The notes beneath the pieces were generated by a model. That model made no database searches, was not told the origin of the DNA, and worked only from the letters and a program-made list of their open reading frames with translations. From contig NC_081183.1 in NCBI RefSeq assembly GCF_029867415.1, positions 194,463,563-194,527,562 on the forward strand: a DNA stretch of 64,000 nucleotides, read 5' to 3'. This document shows, piece after piece, positions 5,402 through 59,868 of this stretch. Every line of letters begins with the position of its first letter. The stretch's first letter is position 1. Position numbers and translations under genes: made by a program. This DNA is from Vicia villosa (Eukaryota > Streptophyta > Magnoliopsida > Fabales > Fabaceae).

Positions 5402-7066
5402 ATGCTTGGAAAACAATTCAACAGACTTATTAAAAAAGTTAATCAGAAGTCCAGACCCAATGTCAAGAACACTTCCAATGACATCAGTCAGACCTATGAC
5501 TCAAGCAAAAGATTCAAGGCTGAGGAGAAGCCCTATCTAGGGAAAGAGGTTCAGTGTCATGGATGTGAAGGATTCAGACACATTAGAGTTGAATGTCCTA
5601 CCTATCACAAGGAGCAAAAGAAATGACTCACTGTTACTTGGTCTGACGAAGACTCAGATTCAGAAGAAGAAACTGCAAGACATGTCACAGTTTCAACAAG
5701 AATCTATGAATCTGATTCCAGTGATGATGACCTAACCTTTGATGAACTAGCTACCTCGTACAAGAAGTTGTGTAGGGAGAATGCTGAAGTCTGCAAACAA
5801 GTGGAGAAGCAAGAGATAATCATAAGAGAGCTAGAAATTGAGAAGAACAAACATCTTGCAACCATAGACTCCCTCAGTAGTGAAGTAAGCATGTTGAACC
5901 ACAAACTTGATCAAATGACCAAGTCATTCAAAATGCTGAACAGTGTATCTGATTCTCTAGAAGAAACTCTGGAATCTGGACAAAGAACAGGAGACATGTC
6001 TGGAGTGGGATTTGTGGCTAAAGAGGAATTAATCTTTGGACTCAGGAGGACAGAACCCAAGACCTGTGTGACTAACTAGATGTCAATCCAAATGTCACAA
6101 CATCAAGGAAACATAAGAAGGAGGCACTCAAAGAAAAGGTTCCAGAAATGGAGGTGTTATCACTGTGGAAGGTTTGGTCACATAAAGTCGTTCTGTTTCA
6201 GACTTTTTGGATACCTAGACCAAACTCAACAAGTCAAACTTGATCATGATATTGGTAACAGGAAGCAATCAGGGATAGCTAAGAATGTTGCTCTAATAGC
6301 ACACACCACTCTAAGGACGCCCACCAAAGAAGATTGGTACCTTGACAATGGCTGTTCAAACCATATGACTGGAAGCAAGAACTCACTAGTAAACCTCAAA
6401 CCGGAGGGATCCAACTATGTGACTCTTGGTGATGGAGATGTAAGAGAAATCAAAGGTGTTGGCAGGATAGAAGGTCAGGGTATTCCTAACCTACATAATG
6501 TTTTACTTGTACAAGGACTGGCCACAAACCTTATAAGCATCAGCCAACTGTGTGATGAAGGAATGTATGTCAGATTCACTAAAGAAGAGTGCATTGTTAC
6601 CAACAAAGAAAATGAAGAAGTCATGAAAGGAGTCAGATCTGAAAATAACTGTTATCTATGGGAGCCAAAAAATTCCAAGTCTCTAACTACTTATCCCATG
6701 AACAAAAGGAAAAATGAAGAAAAAGATCAAGAAAGAACCATCAAATCGGAAGATCCTATTCCCAGAACAAGAATTCTGATAGAAGAAACAGATGAGTCTG
6801 ATGATGAGATCTACATTGAAGAACTCACCAGCGAAGAACTAGCTACTAGATACTCTGAGATGTGTGTTCTAAATGGAGAATTGAGCAAGAGATTGACGAT
6901 GTATGAAAATGCTTATGCACTGTTACAAGAAGAAAGAGTAAAACTCATGATGAACATTGTTGATCTAGAAGGAGGAATACAAGACAAAGAAGGGGAAAAA
7001 AGGCAAAACAAGAGGCTCAACACACTCCTATCTCAGCCAAAAGGTGCTATCAATGTGGTAAGTTAG
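5402..7066 (+). pseudogene. SIRE-type gag-protease fragment with nonsense codons
   Basis: One frame runs through two in-frame stops (5624-5626 and 6077-6079). Visible in order: a zinc knuckle CHGCEGFRHIRVECP; an acidic region and coiled coil (about 5650-5960); a second knuckle CYHCGRFGHIKSFC (about 6154-6198); and the Copia protease site WYLDNGCSNHMTG (about 6336-6374), where the family normally has DSG, so the catalytic-motif Ser is Asn. The protease matches down to about CYLWEPKN (6668) and then gives way to an unrelated acidic coiled-coil stretch instead of integrase. Nonfunctional as a complete polyprotein. Confidence 0.8.
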
Positions 7067-8582: not shown

Positions 8583-9491
8583 TGAAGGTGTTTTCATGTT
8601 GGCTGCATTATTGGTAAAACATACCTGGTTGATATTGTATATGCAGGTTGCATATATGTGTGAAGCTAATACAGGTTTTGTAGTGAATGTCATGATCGAT
8701 GTCATGACATCCGTTTGTGACAGTAGGTGCTGTTATTGTTTATTAATTGTGTTTCCTGATTTATTCTTTTTATCAGTTTAGGAAACTTTTTATTGAATGC
8801 TGCATATTTCGTCCAGAAGATCCTACTGACATCACATTGTGTAACAGACAGTTGGCGTGTGAATTAGGTTAACTTTGTTAACCCTAATGTGTTTCTTAAC
8901 AAGCCCAAGGCCCAAGACTGCATATAAAAATGACTGCAATCCTAATTTGGAACGCAGACAGAAGATTGTGTATTGTGAAGAACGGCTGTTATGTAACTGT
9001 CTCGTGTGATCCAAGCAATTGTCCTTGATGATTGCGTTGGAATTAGTTTGTGTTTTTGTAATGTCACTCTAAGCTTTTAAGCACGAGTGTGTGTCTCTTG
9101 ATTGAAGCTTTTAAGCAGATCAAGGTGTGTTTTTTGAAGAGTGTCTTCTATCTGTAATTGTTTATTGGTTATGTGTAATCACTGCTGTGATTGAGGGGGA
9201 GTGGAATGGAGATATTCCATATCTAGGAAGAACCTAGGTAGAAGGGTCATTGGGTAGTGATTAAGTGAGAAGTTGTAAACGGGGGAGTTTAGTTTTGAAT
9301 TGATACTACTGATAGTGGACTTCATCCCTGGCTTGGTAGCCCCCAGAGTAGGCTATTTAAACCGAAATGGGTAAACAATTGTGTGTGTTCTTTATTGTTT
9401 TTATGCTGTTTTGGTATTACTGTCTGTGCTGCATAATTGTGGATGTCATAACATCCAGGTTGACATCAAGCGTGTGTTACTAGAATTTTCA
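8583..9491 (+). repeat. 3' LTR of the SIRE-like element, preceded by polypurine tract
   Basis: A polypurine tract AAAGGGGGAGAT (8571-8582) immediately precedes TGAAGGTG. The LTR contains a TATA-like ATATAAAAAT near 8924-8933 and a run ending AGAATTTTCA, typical of SIRE LTR ends, giving about 909 bp. The right border is placed by similarity to that ending and by the start of opposite-strand gag. Confidence 0.7.
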
Positions 9492-10230
9492 CACAGTTTT
9501 TATTTTTAGATTTCAAAGCAATAAACTTACCTTTCTTTTGAGGCTCATTTGCATCTAGCTCAATCTCATGACTCCAAAAGGCACTTATCAGCTCCTCAAG
9601 AGATACTTCATTCAGATTCTTAGCAATCTTGAATGCTGTAACCATTGGTCCCCATCTTCTGGGAAGACTTCTTATTATCTTTTTGACATGATCAGCCTTT
9701 GTGTATCCCTTGTTAAGAACTCTTAATCCAACAGTTAGAGTTTGGAATCTGGAGAACATTGCTTCAATGTTTTCATCATCTTCTATTCTGAACGCTTCGT
9801 ACTTTTGGATTAGAGCTAAAGCTTTTGTCTCCTTGACTTGAGCATTTCCTTCATGAGTCATCTTCAGAGATTCAAAGATGTCATGAGCAGTTTCTCTGTT
9901 TGTGATCTTCTCATACTCAACATGTGAGATAACATTTAACAATATAGTTCTTGATTTGTGATGATTCTTGAATTCTTTCTTTTGGTCATCACTCATAACT
10001 TGTCTTGTAATCTTGACTCCACGAGCATTTACAGGATGTGTGTAACCATCCAACACCAAATCCCATAAGTCACCATCTTGACAAAGAAAGTAACTTTCAA
10101 GTCTATCCTTCCAATACTCAAAGTTTTCACCATCAAAGACTGGTGGTCTATTGTAACCATTGAAGCTACTGCTTCCATTGTTACCATTGTTGTTTTGATC
10201 AAGAGGATTTGAAGTAGTTGTTTCAACCAT
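9492..10230 (-). pseudogene. SIRE-type Copia gag N-terminal part (UBN2-like), truncated
   Basis: Open from ATG at 10230 for about 246 residues. It starts MVETTTSNPLDQNNN and carries the gag signature PPVFDGENFEYWKDRLESYF, then the UBN2-like core ending LEELISAFWSHEIELDANEP. It is cut before the zinc knuckles by the junction with the LTR at 9491, so its last residues in the open frame are read from the neighbouring LTR. Intact but incomplete; belongs with the LTR and PBS to its right. Confidence 0.85.
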
Positions 10231-14369: not shown

Positions 14370-17243
14370 ATGAGTTGGAGAACTTTACTTTCACTTCATT
14401 CTTCAAGATACGCAATCAACAAACTCAAATCAATCTCAAATTCCCCATTTCCCACAACACTCTTCAAACCACTACCCGTTTCATCATTCACCGTTCACCG
14501 TAACCTTCATTCCCATTCCCCGGAACTCGGTAACTCGTTAATCGATCCATCACTCGGTACTCACTTCAAAAACGACACCGTTCATCGAAACGACGATGAA
14601 GACGAAACAACCAACGAGTTCCTCTCACGATTCGCGTGGATTATGCGGAAGAAGGTGAAGGAATCGTATCCCGAGAGCGACAAGAGCACTGTTGATGCGA
14701 TGTTACTTGTGATTGTGGAAAGAGTTGCTTCGGAAATGGAGAAGGATGGTGGTGCGACGGCGGAATTTTCGTCTTTTGAATCGGTGGATTTCAGTGAGGA
14801 TCTTTGGAGGACTGTGTGGGAGGTTAGTAATAAGGTGTTGGTTGATATGAATAAAGAGAGGAAGAAGGAGAAAATGAAAGGGTTTTTGCAGTGTGATGAG
14901 GTGAAAGAGATGTGTAGGTTCGCCGGTGAGGTTGGTATTCGGGGTAATTTGCTTCGAGAGCTTAGGTTTAAATGGGCGCGCGAGAAAATGGAGGAACACG
15001 AGTTTAATGAGGATTTGGAGAAATTGAGGAAAGAGGGAGAGGTTGTTGAAGAAGAAGTTGAAAATGATAAGGAAACTGAAACTAATGTTGATGGTGATGT
15101 TCTTGTTGATGGCAATGTTGAGGAGAAGAAGGTTGTTGGGCTTCCGAAGAGGAAAGGGAAAATGAGGTTTAAGATATATGGGCTTGATTTATCTGATCCT
15201 AAATGGGAGCAAGTTGCGGATAGGATTCATGAGGCGGGAGAAGTTCTTTGGCCGAAGGAGGCAAAGCCGATAACTGGGAAATGCAAACAAGTTACTGAGA
15301 AAATTTTGTCGTTGAAGAAGGAGGATGGGGATGATAATTTGTTAAACCTGTTGGCTGAGTGGGTAGAGCTTCTACAGCCTGCTAGGGTGGATTGGATCAA
15401 TTTGCTTGATAGGTTGAAAAACCAGAATTCTCCTTTTTACTTCAAGGTACGTCAATGCCAGTGGTTTTTTTTTTGTTTGTATAGTTGGATTGGTATATCT
15501 GCGATTGCATTGGCTGTTTTAGTTTTTAAATTCGATGTCATTTTTGTAGATTACTTGTCTATGTGAATTTGTTAAGATAGTTTAGCTGATTAATGCTATT
15601 AGAAAATGTTTTTGTTACCATATTATTTTAGCCATGGTAACTTGAAAGTAATTCAAGAAATAAAGATACAACTATACAAGAAATCAAAAGCACATATTTG
15701 GAATGAAAAATCAAGAGAGAAGTTGATAACTAGAGTAGCTAAGAGTTAGTTAGTACTAGTAGTAAGTGGATAAGTTTATTAGGTGGTTGTTAAGAGTTGT
15801 TATTTTGGTTATTCTTAAGAAGTCTTTAAATAGCCTTAAGTTGATAGGCAATATAGCTTTGAATAATTCAATTTTGTGATTAGAGAATTATCTAGTGTGA
15901 AAAGGGAGTGCTTCTTTTGGGTAGCCTTGTGCAATGTTATCATCTTTACTGTTTACTTTTTGTATCTTCTCTTTCGATGTCTCTACACCAATAAGAAATC
16001 ATTCATTTGTTTTCAATCTTTATCATTTGAGAGCACAAATGATTCTAAGAAAACATTTCCATATGCTGCATATGGAAGTTGTAAAAATTTTCATGTAGTG
16101 TATAGGTTTTAGAATGTGAATTGATGTGATCCAAAACGAGATTAAATAAGGCCTGTTTGAATTTTGGGTGTAATTTTTTTTCAAACACTGCTTTTGTAGG
16201 TGGCAGAAATGGTATTGACCGAAGATTCTTTCCAAACAAATATATCTGACTACTCTAGGCTTATTGATATGTATGCTAAAGAGAACCGCATTGATGATAC
16301 CGAGAGGATGCTTAAGAAGATGAATGAAAATGGTATAAAGCTAGATGCTTCGATAGCCAGTGTGTTGGTTCACATGTACAGCAAGATAGGTAATCTGGAA
16401 CGTGCAGAAGAAGCATTGAAAGTCTTGAATGATCTGGGTTTCCAACCAGACACTAAAGTCTACAACTCAATGATCATGGCCTATATAAATGCCGGTGAAC
16501 CTACAAAAGGCGAGACACTGATGAGGCAGATGGACACCCGAGATATTAAGCCCACAAAGGAAATATACATGTCATTGCTCAGATACTATTCCCAACGTGG
16601 TGACTTTGATCGTGCTTCACGAACTTCAACATCTCTGCAGTTTGCAGGACACCAGCAGACTATGGAGACATGCACCCTGCTCATTGAAGCAGCTGCAGTT
16701 TCAGGTGACCTAGATAAGGTAAGCTCCAATTTTGACCACATGGTACAACTTGGGCATAAGCCTGATGATAGGTGCACTGCTGCCATGATTAGTGCTTATG
16801 AGAAGACAAATTTATTGGACAAAGCATTGGATCTTCTTTTGACGTTAGAGAAGGATGGGTTTGAGCCTGGGGTTGCAACTTATTCTGTTCTTATTGATTG
16901 GCTGGCCAAAATGCAGCTTGTTGATGAAGCTGAACAGATTTTAAACAAAATTGCTCTGCTGGGTGAGGCTCCTCCTTTTAAGGTTCAAGTTAGTCTCTGT
17001 GATATGTATGCAAGGACTAAAATGGAGAAAAAGGCCCTTCAAACACTAGGCGTTCTAATAGCTAGGAAGAACGAATTAAAAGAACTCGAGTTTCAGAGGG
17101 TTATAGCCGGCCTTGTTGGTGGCGGGTTTATGCGGGACGCACAAAGAATGCTTGGGATCATGGAGGCACAGGGTTTCAAACCATCTGGACAGCTTATTTC
17201 AGCCCTTAAATCTGGCGACTTACTATTAAGTATGAGGTCATGA
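14370..17243 (+). CDS. P-class pentatricopeptide repeat protein, organelle-targeted
   Basis: Two exons, 14370-15446 and 16200-17243, joined in frame to 706 residues. The N-terminus (MSWRTLLSLHSSRYAINKL) is Ser/Arg-rich with few acidic residues, like a mitochondrial or plastid transit peptide. Residues about 70-350 form a charged helical region specific to this subfamily. From about residue 375 to 690 there are nine consecutive 35-residue PPR motifs, for example VYNSMIMAYINAGEPTKGE and TYSVLIDWLAKMQLVDEAE, with no E or DYW extension. P-class PPR proteins bind organelle RNA and affect its stability, splicing or translation. The overall layout recalls Arabidopsis NFD5-type proteins, but that is only a guess. 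The 753-bp intron holds an AT-rich stretch at about 15680-15900 with a TTTAAATAG motif that could be an old LTR. AATAAA at 17340-17345 is a likely poly(A) signal. Confidence 0.92.
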
Positions 17244-18186: not shown

Positions 18187-20214
18187 ATGACGCAAAGAAA
18201 GCCGTCGTTTCGTTTTCGAATCCCTTGGCTAACAGCAACACAATCATTTTCTCGCCATCCGAAAGAAGCAGCAAAATCATCTACTCAATCAGACATAAAT
18301 GTTCCGATTCAAAGATCATCTAGCAGGCCTTCTGTCATAACCCCTGCAGAGTCTCCTCCAGGTCCTACAAAAACTCAAGAAGCCTCTAGAACAGAACCTC
18401 AAATTCAATCACCACCTCATCCAGTTCAACCAACACCATTATCAACTTCAGTGGTTGTTGAGACCACTCATTCAAAACCTCTTTCTCCATCAAAATCTCC
18501 AAACCATGTTAACTCTCCACCACCATCCTCTTATGCAGCACCTCAGTTTCATGTTTTCTCAACTCCACCTCAGTCTCCTTCTCAATATGACACCATGAAG
18601 GTGCCAAAGTCGATGCCTTCTTCTACTGAAGAGAGTACTCATCCTTCATCATCTGTATCTGAACCAATGCCACAAGAAGCTGAAGCCGAGCCCAAGATGA
18701 AGGTAAAGGTGAATTCACCATTGAGAGAAATCACCAAGTCACCAGAAACCTTTTATCAACAACCTTTTTCTACTCCCTCTTCGCTCGAAGTTTCTAAAAT
18801 TGAACCAGCTTCTCAGCACCATCCACCATCTCCTTTGGCCTCGGAGCGAAAAAATGAGGTGTTAGAAGCTAATCACGAAGAAAACACTTTGCATATATCA
18901 TCTATTTTTCAAGGAGAGAAAGATAAGATGACAGTGTCAGTGTCTGATTCGGTGCCAAATGATGCAGAACCAAAGATGAAGTCACCATTGAAAACCATCC
19001 CCATGTCACAACCAGAGAATCTGTCTAAGCACAGAGAAACAAAATTAGACGAGGAACGATCAATCCCAAAAACAACACCAAAGTCCCCTTTGGGAGCTTT
19101 AAGCAAGTTCCTTCAACATAAAGGGAAGGATAAGCACGGAGAAAACACTCTGCATTCATCGTCTACCTCTCAAGAACAAAAAGTTAAAATTCCAGTGTCA
19201 GTGTCTGATCCGATGCTAGATGAAGCAAAACCAAAGATGAAGTCACCATTGAAAACCTTCCGCATGTCACAATCAGAGAATTTGTCTAAGCACACAACAA
19301 CAAAATTAGATGAGGAAAGATTAATCTCAAAAACAAGATCAAAGTCCCCTTTGGAGACTCATCACAAGATCCTTCAACATAAAGAAAAGGAGAAAGCTGT
19401 GCATGAAAACAAAAAGATAGGAAAATCCAAAGACAAAAGTACTAACCAACTGAATCGACATGCCAAGCCATCTTCTTCAGGCACAAAGGATAAGAAGCAT
19501 CATGGAGCAAGAGAAACAGTAGAGAGAAAGATAATGTTTGCCACATCAAACTCTAGTGGAAAAGACATAGGAGTTATGAGCTCAAAAGATCCAAGCTCAA
19601 GCATTTCACACGAAAGAACTGCTCCATCAAGCGAGGAAAGGGAGAAACAGAATGAAAAGGCTCCAATACAAAAAGGTATCAAAGATGATATTACAAAGTT
19701 TGTTCATAAAATATCTGCCTCAGTTCAACCAACACAGCCTATGGATGACAAGAAATTCAGTGTCATAACGCTGACCGGTGACAATAGAGGAGCTACGATG
19801 CATGTTGTTTCTGAATCAGATAAAAAAGACGGATCAATCCACATTCATAGGGACTACAAGACTGAATCTGAAGAGAGCATTGAGGTGAGCACAGATGGAG
19901 AAGGAAATACTAACAATGAAGAAGATTCTATGGAACATGGTGAGGTTGGGAAGGCATATGTTAACAGCAACATACAAAGTATCAACAATTCACTCATGTT
20001 TCACGGTTCAGTCAGTGAAAGAGACCCTGGAGTTCAAGTTACACTTCCACAAAAGCCCTTAGAACCCGTCAATCACAATGATAAAGACACTCACAATCAG
20101 AGGACCGAGTTTAACATGAGCCGGTCTCAGAAGTCGACATTTCAGCCAACGGTTCGCCGTTATGGTTGCAAGTTCAGTCGTGGCAATAATAATGAAGATA
20201 TCGAGATTATGTGA
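18187..20214 (+). CDS. Ser/Pro/Lys-rich disordered protein with an 87-residue tandem repeat
   Basis: Single-exon frame of 675 residues from ATG 18187, immediately after an A-rich leader. No known catalytic domain or membrane segment. Residues about 15-190 are Ser/Pro/Thr-rich; about 232-318 and 319-405 are two copies of an 87-residue unit containing KMKSPLKT and ENLSKH; a decayed third copy may lie at about 150-185 (KMKVKVNSPLREI). A Lys/Ser-rich middle follows, then a more ordered acidic C-terminal third with a FSVITLTGDNRGATMHV segment and a C-terminus QPTVRRYGCKFSRGNNNED. The intact frame over 2 kb and the conserved-looking termini argue that it is a real protein, but I cannot name a function. 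Convergent with the Tubby-like gene, 408 bp away. Confidence 0.8.
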   Translation: MTQRKPSFRFRIPWLTATQSFSRHPKEAAKSSTQSDINVPIQRSSSRPSVITPAESPPGPTKTQEASRTEPQIQSPPHPVQPTPLSTSVVVETTHSKPLSPSKSPNHVNSPPPSSYAAPQFHVFSTPPQSPSQYDTMKVPKSMPSSTEESTHPSSSVSEPMPQEAEAEPKMKVKVNSPLREITKSPETFYQQPFSTPSSLEVSKIEPASQHHPPSPLASERKNEVLEANHEENTLHISSIFQGEKDKMTVSVSDSVPNDAEPKMKSPLKTIPMSQPENLSKHRETKLDEERSIPKTTPKSPLGALSKFLQHKGKDKHGENTLHSSSTSQEQKVKIPVSVSDPMLDEAKPKMKSPLKTFRMSQSENLSKHTTTKLDEERLISKTRSKSPLETHHKILQHKEKEKAVHENKKIGKSKDKSTNQLNRHAKPSSSGTKDKKHHGARETVERKIMFATSNSSGKDIGVMSSKDPSSSISHERTAPSSEEREKQNEKAPIQKGIKDDITKFVHKISASVQPTQPMDDKKFSVITLTGDNRGATMHVVSESDKKDGSIHIHRDYKTESEESIEVSTDGEGNTNNEEDSMEHGEVGKAYVNSNIQSINNSLMFHGSVSERDPGVQVTLPQKPLEPVNHNDKDTHNQRTEFNMSRSQKSTFQPTVRRYGCKFSRGNNNEDIEIM

Positions 20215-43459: not shown

Positions 43460-43789
43460 AATTCTTTAGAGCCTAATTTCATTGTCACATGGAATGACTA
43501 AGCTCAGAAATTTTTGGCTAAGTATTTTCCTCCTTCCAAGAATGCCAAGATGATAAATGAAATCACTTCATTTAGGTAAGGAGATGACGAGTTTTTGTTT
43601 GATGCATGGAAAAGATTCAAGGAATTGCTTAGACAATGTCCACACTATGGCATACCCATATGGATTCAACTTGAAACATTTTACAATGGGTTGATTACTC
43701 CTTCAAGGAATATGCTAGATGCCTCAAGTGGTGGAGCTCTTTTTTCTAAGTCTTATGAAGAAGGTTATAGATTGATTGAGAGTATTACG
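43460..43789 (+). pseudogene. Athila gag, middle part
   Basis: Continues the broken gag: NSLEPN, AKYFPPSKNAKM, then DAWKRFKELLRQCPHYGIP and LIESIT, matching Athila gag in order, with an in-frame stop near 43500. Bordered on both sides by insertions. Confidence 0.8.
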
Positions 43790-56943: not shown

Positions 56944-56948
56944 AAATC

Positions 56949-57185
56949 TGATAGAGGGGTATAATAGTATTTATAATTAGTATTGTTATGGGATTTTAGT
57001 TGTATTCGGGCTTTTAATATTTGTTGGGCTTTTTAGTTTATTATCCTTTAATAGTATTATATAATGTAGTCTCATAGAGACATTTAGAAGGAATCAATGA
57101 AATCAAAAGTTATTTTATCCTTGTTTCTTTTAGATAGTTTTATTTTCTCTAGTTTTGTTAGGGTTTAGCTTTTTGCTTCCTAACA
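56949..57185 (+). repeat. 5' LTR, 237 bp
   Basis: TG...CA bounded; one difference from the 3' copy. It contains a short AT-rich promoter-like stretch (TATTATATAATG, about 57055-57066) and the repeated AGGGTTTAG near its end. Confidence 0.93.
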
Positions 57186-57187
57186 AT

Positions 57188-57200
57188 TGGTGCTTTCATT
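57188..57200 (+). other. Primer-binding site
   Basis: TGGTGCTTTCATT two bases after the LTR end; the leading TGG pairs with a tRNA CCA end. The same motif is common in plant Gypsy elements. The tRNA is not assigned. Confidence 0.65.
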
Positions 57201-57225
57201 TTCGATCTCACTTCCGCTTAAAGTC

Positions 57226-59583
57226 ATGACAATATTATTGTTTGATGGGGAAGAAGATGCCTATTGGTGGATTCTATGTTTGGAGAAATTTTTCAAGGAG
57301 CATGAAACACCCAAGTCATTGAAGGTTTTAAAAGCTGTTAGAGCATTGAGAGGCTCTGCTTTCAAATGGTGGATATGGTGGTCTCGTGTTCATCGCAGAT
57401 ATAATTGGGAGTTATTTACAACCGCATTATTATGGCGTTTTAAACCTGAATGGCGAGAAATCTTACCAATTTCGGATGAGGAAGAGGAACCGATTGAAGA
57501 GGATGAGGAGTGGGAGGTTGAACCTCAACAGTTGGTGCAAGGGGATAACATTGATGTACAACCAACAATGGTGGATGAAAGAATCAACGATTCCAACAAA
57601 TTTTCTTCTTCACGTGTTATTTCGGATCTGGATTTTGCATTATCAGTTAAAGATCCAATCGTTCAATCCCCTGTTCCGGAAGAAATCCCATTACATACAC
57701 CTTTGTTCGTCGAGTCAGACAATCAGTATGAAGAAAACACGATTCAACCATATGAGCTCATAACAACAAGTCTCGACATTTTTTCGGCAGTCGGCGGTGA
57801 ACAGAAAGATCTTATCGATACAGCCTGCAAGGAGAAATGTATGGATCATTCCTCTTGCTTTACACTCGTAACGTTCCCTCCCGCCTTCGCATTTCCATCG
57901 ATGAAGGAAACGATGAACACTACCTCCACAACATCACCCCAACACTCAGTTTCTTTATTCGACCCTGGAGGATATTTTAAATTGCAAGAGTCTTGGATTG
58001 CAAACCGAGCTTTACTCCCATCTCCAAAACCACCTTATCAGAATGACACACAATGGTTGATTTATTTGATAAAATTCTATGCAAATTTTAGTTGTATGTA
58101 CTCTGCACAAAAGGTGTTTGCTGAAATGTCTGAACAAAGTATTGTCTCATGTTTGACCTTCATTCAAAGAGTTTTTACTAGCAACACATATGGTTGGGAA
58201 GGGTACACATCACTCTCATTGGATTTATGGAACATTTATGAAATAGACACCATTTTTCCAGCGTATATTTTAGAGCAGAATCAAGGAGATGGAGAGATAA
58301 GTGTTCTTTATGCCGTAATTCTGGTTTGTGCCATAAGGGGATTTCACTACAAACAATGGGATCCAGGGGTTCTGTTTTGGAAATATTTCATGTGTAAGGA
58401 GAAAGCAAAGATTATGGTGAAATGGGCGACGCTGATCGAACAAAACATAGAAGACGTTGCAGCATTGGATACAATTGATGGAGGGAAGTTGTATAGTTGG
58501 TGTAAGGCTGTTCATGTACCTGAAGAGACGAATATCTTGCGATGCTATGCTGGCGCTGATGATAAGATTCTTGGAAAAGTGTTCAAAACTTCGAGGAATC
58601 TTCATTTATATACTTTGATGGAACATATTGGTGTTGTTGGACATATTATACCTTGGATTTTTCCGATTGCTATGTTCTTTACTAAGGTTGCTCCTTCTTT
58701 GGCTGCTGGTTGTACTATGGTTCCTAAACCGGCTGAACAAACACCTCTCTCTTCTTTGTTTTATGCTTATCTCGCTAACGAGGTTGGAATTCCGAATGGA
58801 GTACTCAATGTAGTACCTGGATTTGGCGCAACTGCAGGAGCTGCTATCACCTCACATATGGACATTGATGCAATCCGTTTCACTGGTTCAACCGAAACGG
58901 GTCGTCGCATAATGCAGGCGGATGAATGCTTGATGACAAGAATGCAAGATATGTATTTGGGCTATCATTTCCTTTTGGAGCAAGAATTTGGATCCTTAAC
59001 TCATGCTTTCTTTGGTTTCAATAGCACAATTGTTGTTTGGAGAATTTCACCACTAAATGAAGTTGGTGGATGGAAGGATCACACAACAGTAGAAGATATG
59101 GACTTAGCAGTAAGAGCTAGTCTCAAAGGATGGAAATTTGTCTACTTTAGTGACCTCAAGGTGAAAAGTGAATTGCCAAGTACCTTCAAAGCCTACTGTT
59201 ATCAGCAACATAGATGGTCATGTGGTTTAGCAAATCTTTTCAAAGAAATGACAATGGAAATTATAAGAAACAAGAAAGTCACCATGTGGAAGAAATTTTA
59301 TGTGGTTTATAGTTTTTTCTTTATGGGAAAGATAATAGCTCATGTAGTCACATTTACATTCTACTGTGTCATTTTGCTTGCAACTGTTTTAGTTCCAGAA
59401 GTAGAAGTTCTAAAATGGGGTGTTGTCTATATACCTTCAATCATCACACTTCTTAATGCAGTGGAATCACCTTACATGAGAAAATTGATTTTTCAAATTA
59501 TGAAGTATATGTCGCAAATAATTAGTGACAATTTGTTATTCAAGCAATGGGATCCGGGAACAATATCTCTACTCGTATATTGA
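57226..59583 (+). CDS. Chimeric gag-PPR?-ALDH-CSLA open reading frame
   Basis: 785 codons from ATG 57226 (an upstream in-frame TTG is not a likely start). Residues 1-80: Gypsy gag (LLFDGEEDAYWWILCLEKFF; LRGSAFKWWIWWSRVHRRYNW). About 81-240: acidic, low-complexity linker. About 241-270: SLFDPGGYFKLQESW. About 278-320: a possible PPR fragment (FYANFSCMYSAQKVFAEMSE). About 391-565: aldehyde dehydrogenase (ALDH2 family) piece, with IGVVGHIIPWIFP, KPAEQTPLSSLFYAYLANE, NVVPGFGATAGAAITSHMD and FTGSTETGRRIM. 566-751: CSLA (glucomannan mannosyltransferase-like) piece, with FFGFNSTIVVWRI, TTVEDMDLAVRASLKGWKF and YQQHRWSCG, and two hydrophobic segments. 752-785: tail with KQWDPG. The ALDH catalytic Cys lies outside the fragment and the PWNFP Asn is Ile, so no ALDH activity is expected. 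CSLA keeps its ED and QxxRW motifs but lacks the N-terminal half. No introns remain within either piece, suggesting mRNA origin. Confidence 0.88.
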   Translation: MTILLFDGEEDAYWWILCLEKFFKEHETPKSLKVLKAVRALRGSAFKWWIWWSRVHRRYNWELFTTALLWRFKPEWREILPISDEEEEPIEEDEEWEVEPQQLVQGDNIDVQPTMVDERINDSNKFSSSRVISDLDFALSVKDPIVQSPVPEEIPLHTPLFVESDNQYEENTIQPYELITTSLDIFSAVGGEQKDLIDTACKEKCMDHSSCFTLVTFPPAFAFPSMKETMNTTSTTSPQHSVSLFDPGGYFKLQESWIANRALLPSPKPPYQNDTQWLIYLIKFYANFSCMYSAQKVFAEMSEQSIVSCLTFIQRVFTSNTYGWEGYTSLSLDLWNIYEIDTIFPAYILEQNQGDGEISVLYAVILVCAIRGFHYKQWDPGVLFWKYFMCKEKAKIMVKWATLIEQNIEDVAALDTIDGGKLYSWCKAVHVPEETNILRCYAGADDKILGKVFKTSRNLHLYTLMEHIGVVGHIIPWIFPIAMFFTKVAPSLAAGCTMVPKPAEQTPLSSLFYAYLANEVGIPNGVLNVVPGFGATAGAAITSHMDIDAIRFTGSTETGRRIMQADECLMTRMQDMYLGYHFLLEQEFGSLTHAFFGFNSTIVVWRISPLNEVGGWKDHTTVEDMDLAVRASLKGWKFVYFSDLKVKSELPSTFKAYCYQQHRWSCGLANLFKEMTMEIIRNKKVTMWKKFYVVYSFFFMGKIIAHVVTFTFYCVILLATVLVPEVEVLKWGVVYIPSIITLLNAVESPYMRKLIFQIMKYMSQIISDNLLFKQWDPGTISLLVY

Positions 59584-59626
59584 TTTTAGAACCTTGAGGA
59601 CAAGGTTCACGTGAACCCGGCGGCAA

Positions 59627-59863
59627 TGATAGAGGGGTATAATAGTATTTATAATTAGTATTGTTATGGGATTTTAGTTGTATTTGGGCTTTTAATATTT
59701 GTTGGGCTTTTTAGTTTATTATCCTTTAATAGTATTATATAATGTAGTCTCATAGAGACATTTAGAAGGAATCAATGAAATCAAAAGTTATTTTATCCTT
59801 GTTTCTTTTAGATAGTTTTATTTTCTCTAGTTTTGTTAGGGTTTAGCTTTTTGCTTCCTAACA
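59627..59863 (+). repeat. 3' LTR, 237 bp
   Basis: Same length and sequence as the 5' LTR except for T at 59685; followed directly by the AAATC duplication. Confidence 0.93.
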
Positions 59864-59868
59864 AAATC

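Follow-up and report, generated by a model that had tools for sequence, protein, structure and literature searches.

Spliced pieces of several host genes within single long frames in a family of Vicia villosa LTR retrotransposons

The window analysed here is a stretch of 64,000 nucleotides of Vicia villosa (contig NC_081183.1). At positions 56949-59863, it contains a long terminal repeat (LTR) retrotransposon, hereafter named the query, in which a gag N-terminus and fragments of two host genes, an aldehyde dehydrogenase (ALDH) and a glucomannan 4-beta-mannosyltransferase (CSLA), share one frame of 785 codons. The query belongs to a large family whose members carry pieces of different plant genes. 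We consider it highly probable that these are helper-dependent LTR elements that gain pieces of spliced host mRNAs by template switching. In the following, L-numbers designate the genomic loci compared with the query.

The structure of the query agrees with that proposed by an earlier, sequence-only reading of the window. Its two LTRs, with TG..CA ends, differ at a single position (57007 C vs 59685 T, in a CG/TG context); the repeat finder gives a length of 238 bp instead of 237, as the adjoining base matches by chance. Across the genome, 40 relatives of this LTR were scored among 1277 candidates. A perfect AAATC duplication flanks the element and a primer-binding-site (PBS)-like sequence follows the 5' LTR, as had been claimed. 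The long frame is indeed uninterrupted, and its stop lies 43 nt from the 3' LTR; for comparison, 500 first-order Markov sequences of the query composition gave frames of up to 160 codons. A protein-database entry exists for this frame. With Pfam, no pol domain was found in it, and none in 17 relatives either, whose frames were read in many cases for 580 codons only. Pack-MULEs are recognised by terminal inverted repeats and a 9-bp duplication; the query has direct LTRs, a 5-bp duplication and none of the donor introns. Its features are the following.

56944..56948, no strand: target-site duplication AAATC, 5' copy (sequence read)
56949..57185, plus: 5' LTR, 237 bp, TGATAG..CTAACA (repeat comparison)
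57188..57200, plus: PBS-like TGGTGCTTTCATT, 2 nt past the 5' LTR (position; begins TGG)
57226..57465, plus: gag, Ty3-type capsid-like N-terminus, 80 codons (common to many family members, conserved)
57226..59583, plus: single frame of 785 codons, 96.6% of the internal region
57498..58151, plus: module with FDPGG and PPKPPY motifs, holding the stretch once read as a PPR scrap (DNA comparison with L056)
58152..58397, plus: segment with the first KQWDPG motif (58351-58368), no source found among the compared loci
58398..58921, plus: ALDH2C4-type aldehyde dehydrogenase fragment, about residues 82-254 of about 500, minus two donor introns (Pfam, PDB, donor alignment)
58918..58922, plus: ALDH/CSLA junction, 1-4 nt donor overlap (donor alignment)
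58922..59471, plus: CSLA fragment, about residues 225-409 of 527, minus three donor introns (Pfam, Vicia faba match, donor alignment)
59472..59583, plus: 3' end of the frame with the second KQWDPG motif (59542-59559); from 59536 on, 80% match to L076; no source for 59472-59541 among the compared loci
59583..59626, plus: family-conserved 3' tail (AACCTTGAGGACAAGGTT ... GGCGGCAA), adjoining the 3' LTR (common to 16 compared loci)
59627..59863, plus: 3' LTR, 237 bp (repeat comparison)
59864..59868, no strand: target-site duplication AAATC, 3' copy (sequence read)

The two gene families named by the sequence-only reading were recovered in the frame, as an ALDH domain at residues 385-572 (Pfam E 2e-52) and a family-2 glycosyltransferase domain of the CSLA type at residues 569-721 (Pfam E 4e-17). 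The top PDB match of the frame is the plant ALDH RF2C (E 1e-65), and the CSLA part is 79% identical to Vicia faba CSLA over 203 amino acids. Both donors were identified in the same genome, with exons about 91-95% identical in DNA to the query. For ALDH, the donor is the multi-exon gene L051 at C4:2.17 Mb, whose blocks match residues 13-482 of a 500-residue ALDH used as search sequence; three of its exons are 90.6, 94.6 and 91.7% identical to the query, in which both intervening introns (about 88 and 76 bp, GT..AG) are absent. For CSLA, it is the multi-exon gene L068 at C1:108.23 Mb, with residues 99-527 of 527 within the stretch examined; four exons are 94.3, 90.6, 92.2 and 94.5% identical, and the query lacks three introns of about 98, 285 and 75 bp (GT..AG). 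Intron lengths were computed by hand from the alignments. Because five GT..AG donor introns are precisely absent, spliced mRNA was copied into the query. The donors lie on two contigs and are unlinked. A host gene merely flanked by LTR insertions is ruled out, given two unlinked, intron-containing donors whose introns are missing in the query.

The query is one of many such elements. Searching the genome with its 80-residue gag gave 150 scored matches among 2206 candidates, the query included. Open frames of at least 300 codons hold 80 of the 150 matches, those of at least 450 codons 55, of at least 700 codons 36 and of at least 900 codons 13. Among 37 frames read, 26 of at least 300 codons fall into about 21 kinds, some with common modules, after grouping of near-identical copies by hand. 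Cargo was sought with Pfam in the readable frames of 18 elements including the query, in many cases over the first 580 codons alone; four of the cargo stretches were also compared with PDB sequences. At least one recognisable host gene was found in 13 of the 18 elements. Five of them, namely the query, L022, L023, L056 and L060, hold two or more, counted above the cut-off or by a strong PDB match. Hence, the multi-gene capture put forward by the sequence-only reading stands and other copies with different cargo do exist, but multi-gene capture is no isolated case here and recurs in a large family. The cargo of the relatives is as follows.

L016: Nop domain (Pfam)
L022: pyruvate decarboxylase and PPR (Pfam)
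L023: SEO_N, KH, SF3B1 and poly(A)-binding protein, PABP (Pfam/PDB scan)
L025: LRR receptor (PDB only)
L036: amidohydrolase (Pfam)
L053: ALDH (Pfam)
L056: ALDH and NPH3 (Pfam)
L057: ALDH (Pfam)
L060: arginine decarboxylase and amidophosphoribosyltransferase (PDB; Pfam matches under the cut-off)
L061: dynamin; GH3 just under the cut-off (Pfam)
L062: coatomer beta; aconitase under the cut-off (Pfam)
L063: RRP12; C2H2 finger under the cut-off (Pfam)

The RRP12 cargo of L063 recurs as an uninterrupted run without introns at six or more sites, three within the L063 array and the others counted regardless of LTRs; its donor consists of five separate exons at one place in the genome. Target duplications of 5 bases were also observed at L058, L060, L061, L062 and L023. 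Among annotated V. villosa proteins, which are gene models that annotators may have spliced, P0006 joins gag to a helicase and P0013 joins gag to an amidotransferase, a carboxypeptidase and RSN1. Gag relatives beyond vetch come from Lathyrus sativus (P0004, P0005) and Trifolium (P0002, P0008). The protein search with the gag region alone gave 6 matches, as compared to 13 in the first protein search. In L063 and in L036/L037, LTR-internal units with 99.7-100% identity to one another are arranged in tandem, which suggests recombination of recent copies. By eye, the short motifs PPKPPD, FDPGG, YDPGPPK and KQWDPGK recur between cargo pieces in many members, and they may mark preferred switch points.

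The claim that the frame begins with gag was upheld through the relatives. At E<=1, Retrotrans_gag is matched by 16 of 17 members (best E 4e-4) and Ty3_capsid by 8 of 17, all weakly, the query gag alone being the one member with no Pfam match at this threshold. A PDB search of the gag gave nothing significant; of the six matches listed, three are to Arc capsids (E 0.13-0.15) and three to G-protein-coupled receptors (E 0.5). From these profile matches, the gag is assigned to the Ty3 capsid type. It is conserved, with a median dN/dS of 0.095 and a pooled value of 0.118 (28 gags, 370 pairs with dS >0.05; L022 and L032, with shorter matches, were excluded), values in which dN is lowered by sampling according to protein similarity. 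The frames of L053, L056, L061 and L063 start in a second way, with an abundance of P, Y, S, T and H residues (MYSNPP.., MAYPYY.., MEYSNF..). This P/Y-rich leader precedes gag in L056 and stands without a gag match in L053, L061 and L063; maybe it is an older leader of the family.

Comparison of the parts of the query with other elements revealed mosaicism. The gag region matches 36 compared loci (some of them the same place twice), the eight best with 88-95% DNA identity. The next 654 bp, in contrast, match only L056/L047 (one place), L057 and, over the last 98 bp, L058. This module is 88.7% identical in DNA to that of L056 (dN/dS 0.56), whereas the two gags are only 64.5% identical; the two parts therefore have different histories, pointing to recombination between elements. 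The module contains the 51-residue stretch suggested earlier to be a PPR scrap. No Pfam match at E<=1 was obtained for it, either with the piece alone or with relatives P0007, P0010 and P0012, where the PPR-like stretch was recognised by eye. Because it lies in a module common to other family members, it is not an independent capture in the query. For 58152-58397, the only match among the compared loci covers 81 bp (58231-58311, 79%, L031), and for the CSLA part there is no match over 60% of its length. Over 1.29 kb, L056 and L057 have 98.4% identity, which breaks off abruptly within an ALDH segment; in this one pair, the break is best read as a recent exchange between elements. In addition, the query, L053 and L054 share 14 ALDH bases that differ from L051. 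Hence, these three ALDH pieces probably do not derive from entirely separate captures, or else the exact donor was not L051.

Recent movement of the query, as claimed earlier, is supported by the one LTR difference in 237 bp. Age and frame were compared in the elements for which an LTR pair was available (L055, L057 and L059 were excluded), with frame coverage of the internal region computed by hand. L053-L058 had been found through their ALDH match.

L053: LTR identity 100%, frame coverage 99%
L023: LTR identity 100%, frame coverage 95%
L036/37: LTR identity 100%, frame coverage about 79% (3' LTR edge estimated)
L063, first unit: LTR identity 99.7%, frame coverage 98.6%
L058: LTR identity 99.6%, frame coverage 90%
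Query: LTR identity 99.6%, frame coverage 96.6%
L056: LTR identity 99.2%, frame coverage 95.6%
L060: LTR identity 98.9%, frame coverage 47%
L061: LTR identity 98.2%, frame coverage 49%
L062: LTR identity 98.1%, frame coverage 32%
L054: LTR identity 96.8% over a 125-bp match, frame coverage about 25%

In six of the seven elements whose LTRs are at least 99.2% identical, the frame covers 90% or more; in all four below 99%, it covers 25-49%. A stop interrupts the second complete unit of L063, with a coverage of about 86%. A new copy is thus, in most cases, a single long frame despite differing cargo.

The cargo itself is older than the query insertion, as the query differs at 33 CSLA sites from the two donor paralogues alike. 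It also evolves nearly neutrally, with no sign of purifying selection. Between the two CSLA donor paralogues there is no amino acid difference, as compared to 24 amino acid changes in 182 codons between the query and the donor. The element branch of CSLA carries about 9 synonymous and about 25.5 amino acid changes, giving a dN/dS near 0.7 (0.47 pairwise against L068). For ALDH, dN/dS against L051 is 0.73, and the query differs from the ALDH cargo of L053 by 4 synonymous and 28 amino acid changes.

The route we propose is as follows; packaging, the helper, template switching as an act and selection for a continuous frame are the steps that we infer. The query would be a non-autonomous LTR retrotransposon, with the gag N-terminus as its only element-type coding part. 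RNA transcribed from the LTR would encode one Gag-cargo fusion protein, while reverse transcriptase and integrase would have to be supplied by a helper element. The particle protein may also be provided in trans, because some young relatives have no gag match. During reverse transcription, the growing strand would switch among co-packaged RNAs, from the element RNA to spliced host mRNAs and back; minus-strand synthesis in the query would have met CSLA, then ALDH. The return switch could alternatively be onto the RNA of another element. The product would be a mosaic that keeps the LTRs, the PBS, the 3' tail and usually gag, with the middle swapped. A continuous frame would then be selected, for example to escape nonsense-mediated decay.

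A number of observations weigh against this route. No helper element was seen in the frames read, and no search aimed at a helper was made. The query tail before the 3' LTR ends in CCCGGCGGCAA, which is weakly purine-rich and not a classical polypurine tract. No gag match to the query was found in L053, L058 and L063, all young and with long frames; with three of seven young elements lacking such a match, the data do not support a cis role of Gag throughout the family. In five of the 18 elements scanned (L014, L017, L027, L029 and L031), no host gene was recognisable. L056 has no target-site duplication, and no LTR pair was recovered for L055, L057 and L059. The 12-25 nt directly upstream of the ALDH exon in the query bear a weak likeness to the end of the donor intron, for which chance is left possible; the ALDH template may have been incompletely spliced at its 5' edge. 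In 32% of the simulations for ALDH and 22% of those for CSLA, run with the observed number of substitutions, the cargo stays free of stops by chance. These values are not significant, so that open cargo alone is no proof of selection on the frame. The frame/age sample is small and L023 was chosen partly for its long frame, which favours the observed pattern, and the sampling of gags by similarity mentioned above belongs to the same list.

Tentatively, the family could be an open-reading-frame trap, in which a continuous translated frame up to the 3' LTR is required for propagation, so that chance switches onto host mRNAs are screened for in-frame products. A serious alternative, though on balance unlikely, is that frames are open through youth alone, without frame selection, and that protein-based searches see in-frame cargo only. 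The stop simulations agree with it, and Pfam run on a frame finds in-frame cargo by construction. Moreover, 70 of the 150 gag matches lie in frames shorter than 300 codons, and L036/37, with identical repeats, has lost its frame after about 79%. What speaks for filtering is that coverage reaches 90-99% in all but one of the seven young elements, the cargo being mostly unrelated, while each junction would keep the frame with a chance of 1 in 3. Furthermore, off-frame domains were sought in two elements, and the five other frames of the query and of L053 gave no Pfam match (E<=0.01). The detectable cargo there is thus sense and in frame, which is what capture from host mRNA with filtering of the frame would give.

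The 785 open codons and the native frame of both fragments would also fit a domesticated host gene, in which a functional Gag-ALDH-CSLA protein is selected and the LTRs are remnants. We regard this as very improbable. The near-identical LTRs and the intact duplication denote a recent insertion, the cargo evolves near neutrality as described above, and only the middle of each protein is present, leaving both enzymes incomplete. In addition, no second copy of the ALDH-CSLA fusion was found among the scored matches (65 of 65 ALDH candidates and 52 of 52 CSLA candidates).

Filling at the DNA level, by double-strand break repair, gene conversion, or Pack-MULE or Helitron capture, has still less to recommend it, even if such capture is described in plants (PMC13317346). 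It would not account for the five precisely missing introns, for the RRP12 cargo that is continuous while its donor lies in separate exons, or for the lack of antisense or off-frame cargo in the two elements tested. Just as hard to credit is the successive insertion of LINE-type processed retrogenes into an LTR element, since these, though also spliced gene copies, carry poly(A) and a duplication around each piece, whereas the query pieces are internal exon stretches with neither poly(A) nor duplication at their edges (junctions read at the base level), ALDH passes straight into CSLA, and many members have host pieces in one frame, as seen at the frame level, the base-level junctions being those of the query.

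The proposed capture of host mRNAs by an LTR element has a counterpart in Bs1 of maize, reportedly the work of Elrouby and Bureau. PMC13317346 and PMC7264820 describe it as an LTR element in which pieces of three host genes form a chimeric gene. Gene transduction of the Bs1 type, with spliced pieces of several host genes in one frame of an LTR element, is what the query shows as well. Compared by these descriptions, Bs1 is one element with one cargo set, whereas the vetch family has many members with different sets and exchange between them. TR-GAG elements have LTRs and a single Gag frame without pol; as stated in PMC8704663, one Arabidopsis copy transposed, and its authors suggest that the enzymes may come from a related autonomous element. 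The query shares the LTRs, the Gag frame and the lack of pol, with host cargo in addition; TR-GAG, as described there, encodes Gag alone, whereas in the vetch family a constant N-terminal Gag part is followed by cargo and modules.

Acute transforming retroviruses are defective, carry Gag-onc fusions and need a helper. The vetch elements resemble them in the spliced host pieces fused in frame to gag and in the presumed need for a helper; they differ in element class and host, in holding several genes each and in having no known growth advantage. Pack-MULEs and Helitrons also shuffle several genes, but at the DNA level and possibly with introns, unlike the vetch elements with their LTRs, 5-bp duplications and spliced pieces.

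Host gene fragments in LTR elements are widespread, to judge from surveys in maize (425 LTR elements with gene fragments; PMC2774510) and in rice and sorghum (PMC3726574). Under the conditions of the maize survey, no element is reported to hold fragments of more than one standard nuclear gene, in contrast to five of the 18 vetch elements scanned. On this comparison, the repeated multi-gene in-frame capture is unusual and sets the vetch family apart from that survey. In the open PMC literature (titles and abstract starts, with subscription papers outside the scope), no description of gene-capturing LTR elements of vetches was found.

Elsewhere in the window, a PPR protein frame lies at 16209-17243 (plus strand; PPR_2 E 3e-32). 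Upstream of it, a 398-codon frame without Pfam match (14370-15566, plus) possibly represents its N-terminal part. Copia-type remnants were seen at 6080-7066 (plus) and 9466-10230 (minus), with a Pol beta-barrel domain and a copia gag. The plant C/D snoRNA snoR71 is present at 43547-43653 (minus; full model length, 52 bits). A 675-codon frame at 18187-20214 (plus), without Pfam match, holds a tandem duplication of 261 bp (87 codons) at 18870-19391, with 83% matches.

Should the family indeed act as an open-reading-frame trap, it would provide a steady supply of multi-gene Gag-host or leader-host fusion proteins, some of which would be able to enter capsid-like particles. More generally, the vetch family can be seen as a natural gene shuffler, whose members carry different plant gene pieces. 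Multi-gene capture recurs here in many young copies within one legume genome, and the birth of exon-shuffled genes by reverse transcription becomes measurable, as donor, junction, frame and age are readable for many events. Overall, the family allows one to ask whether translation filters which chimeras spread.

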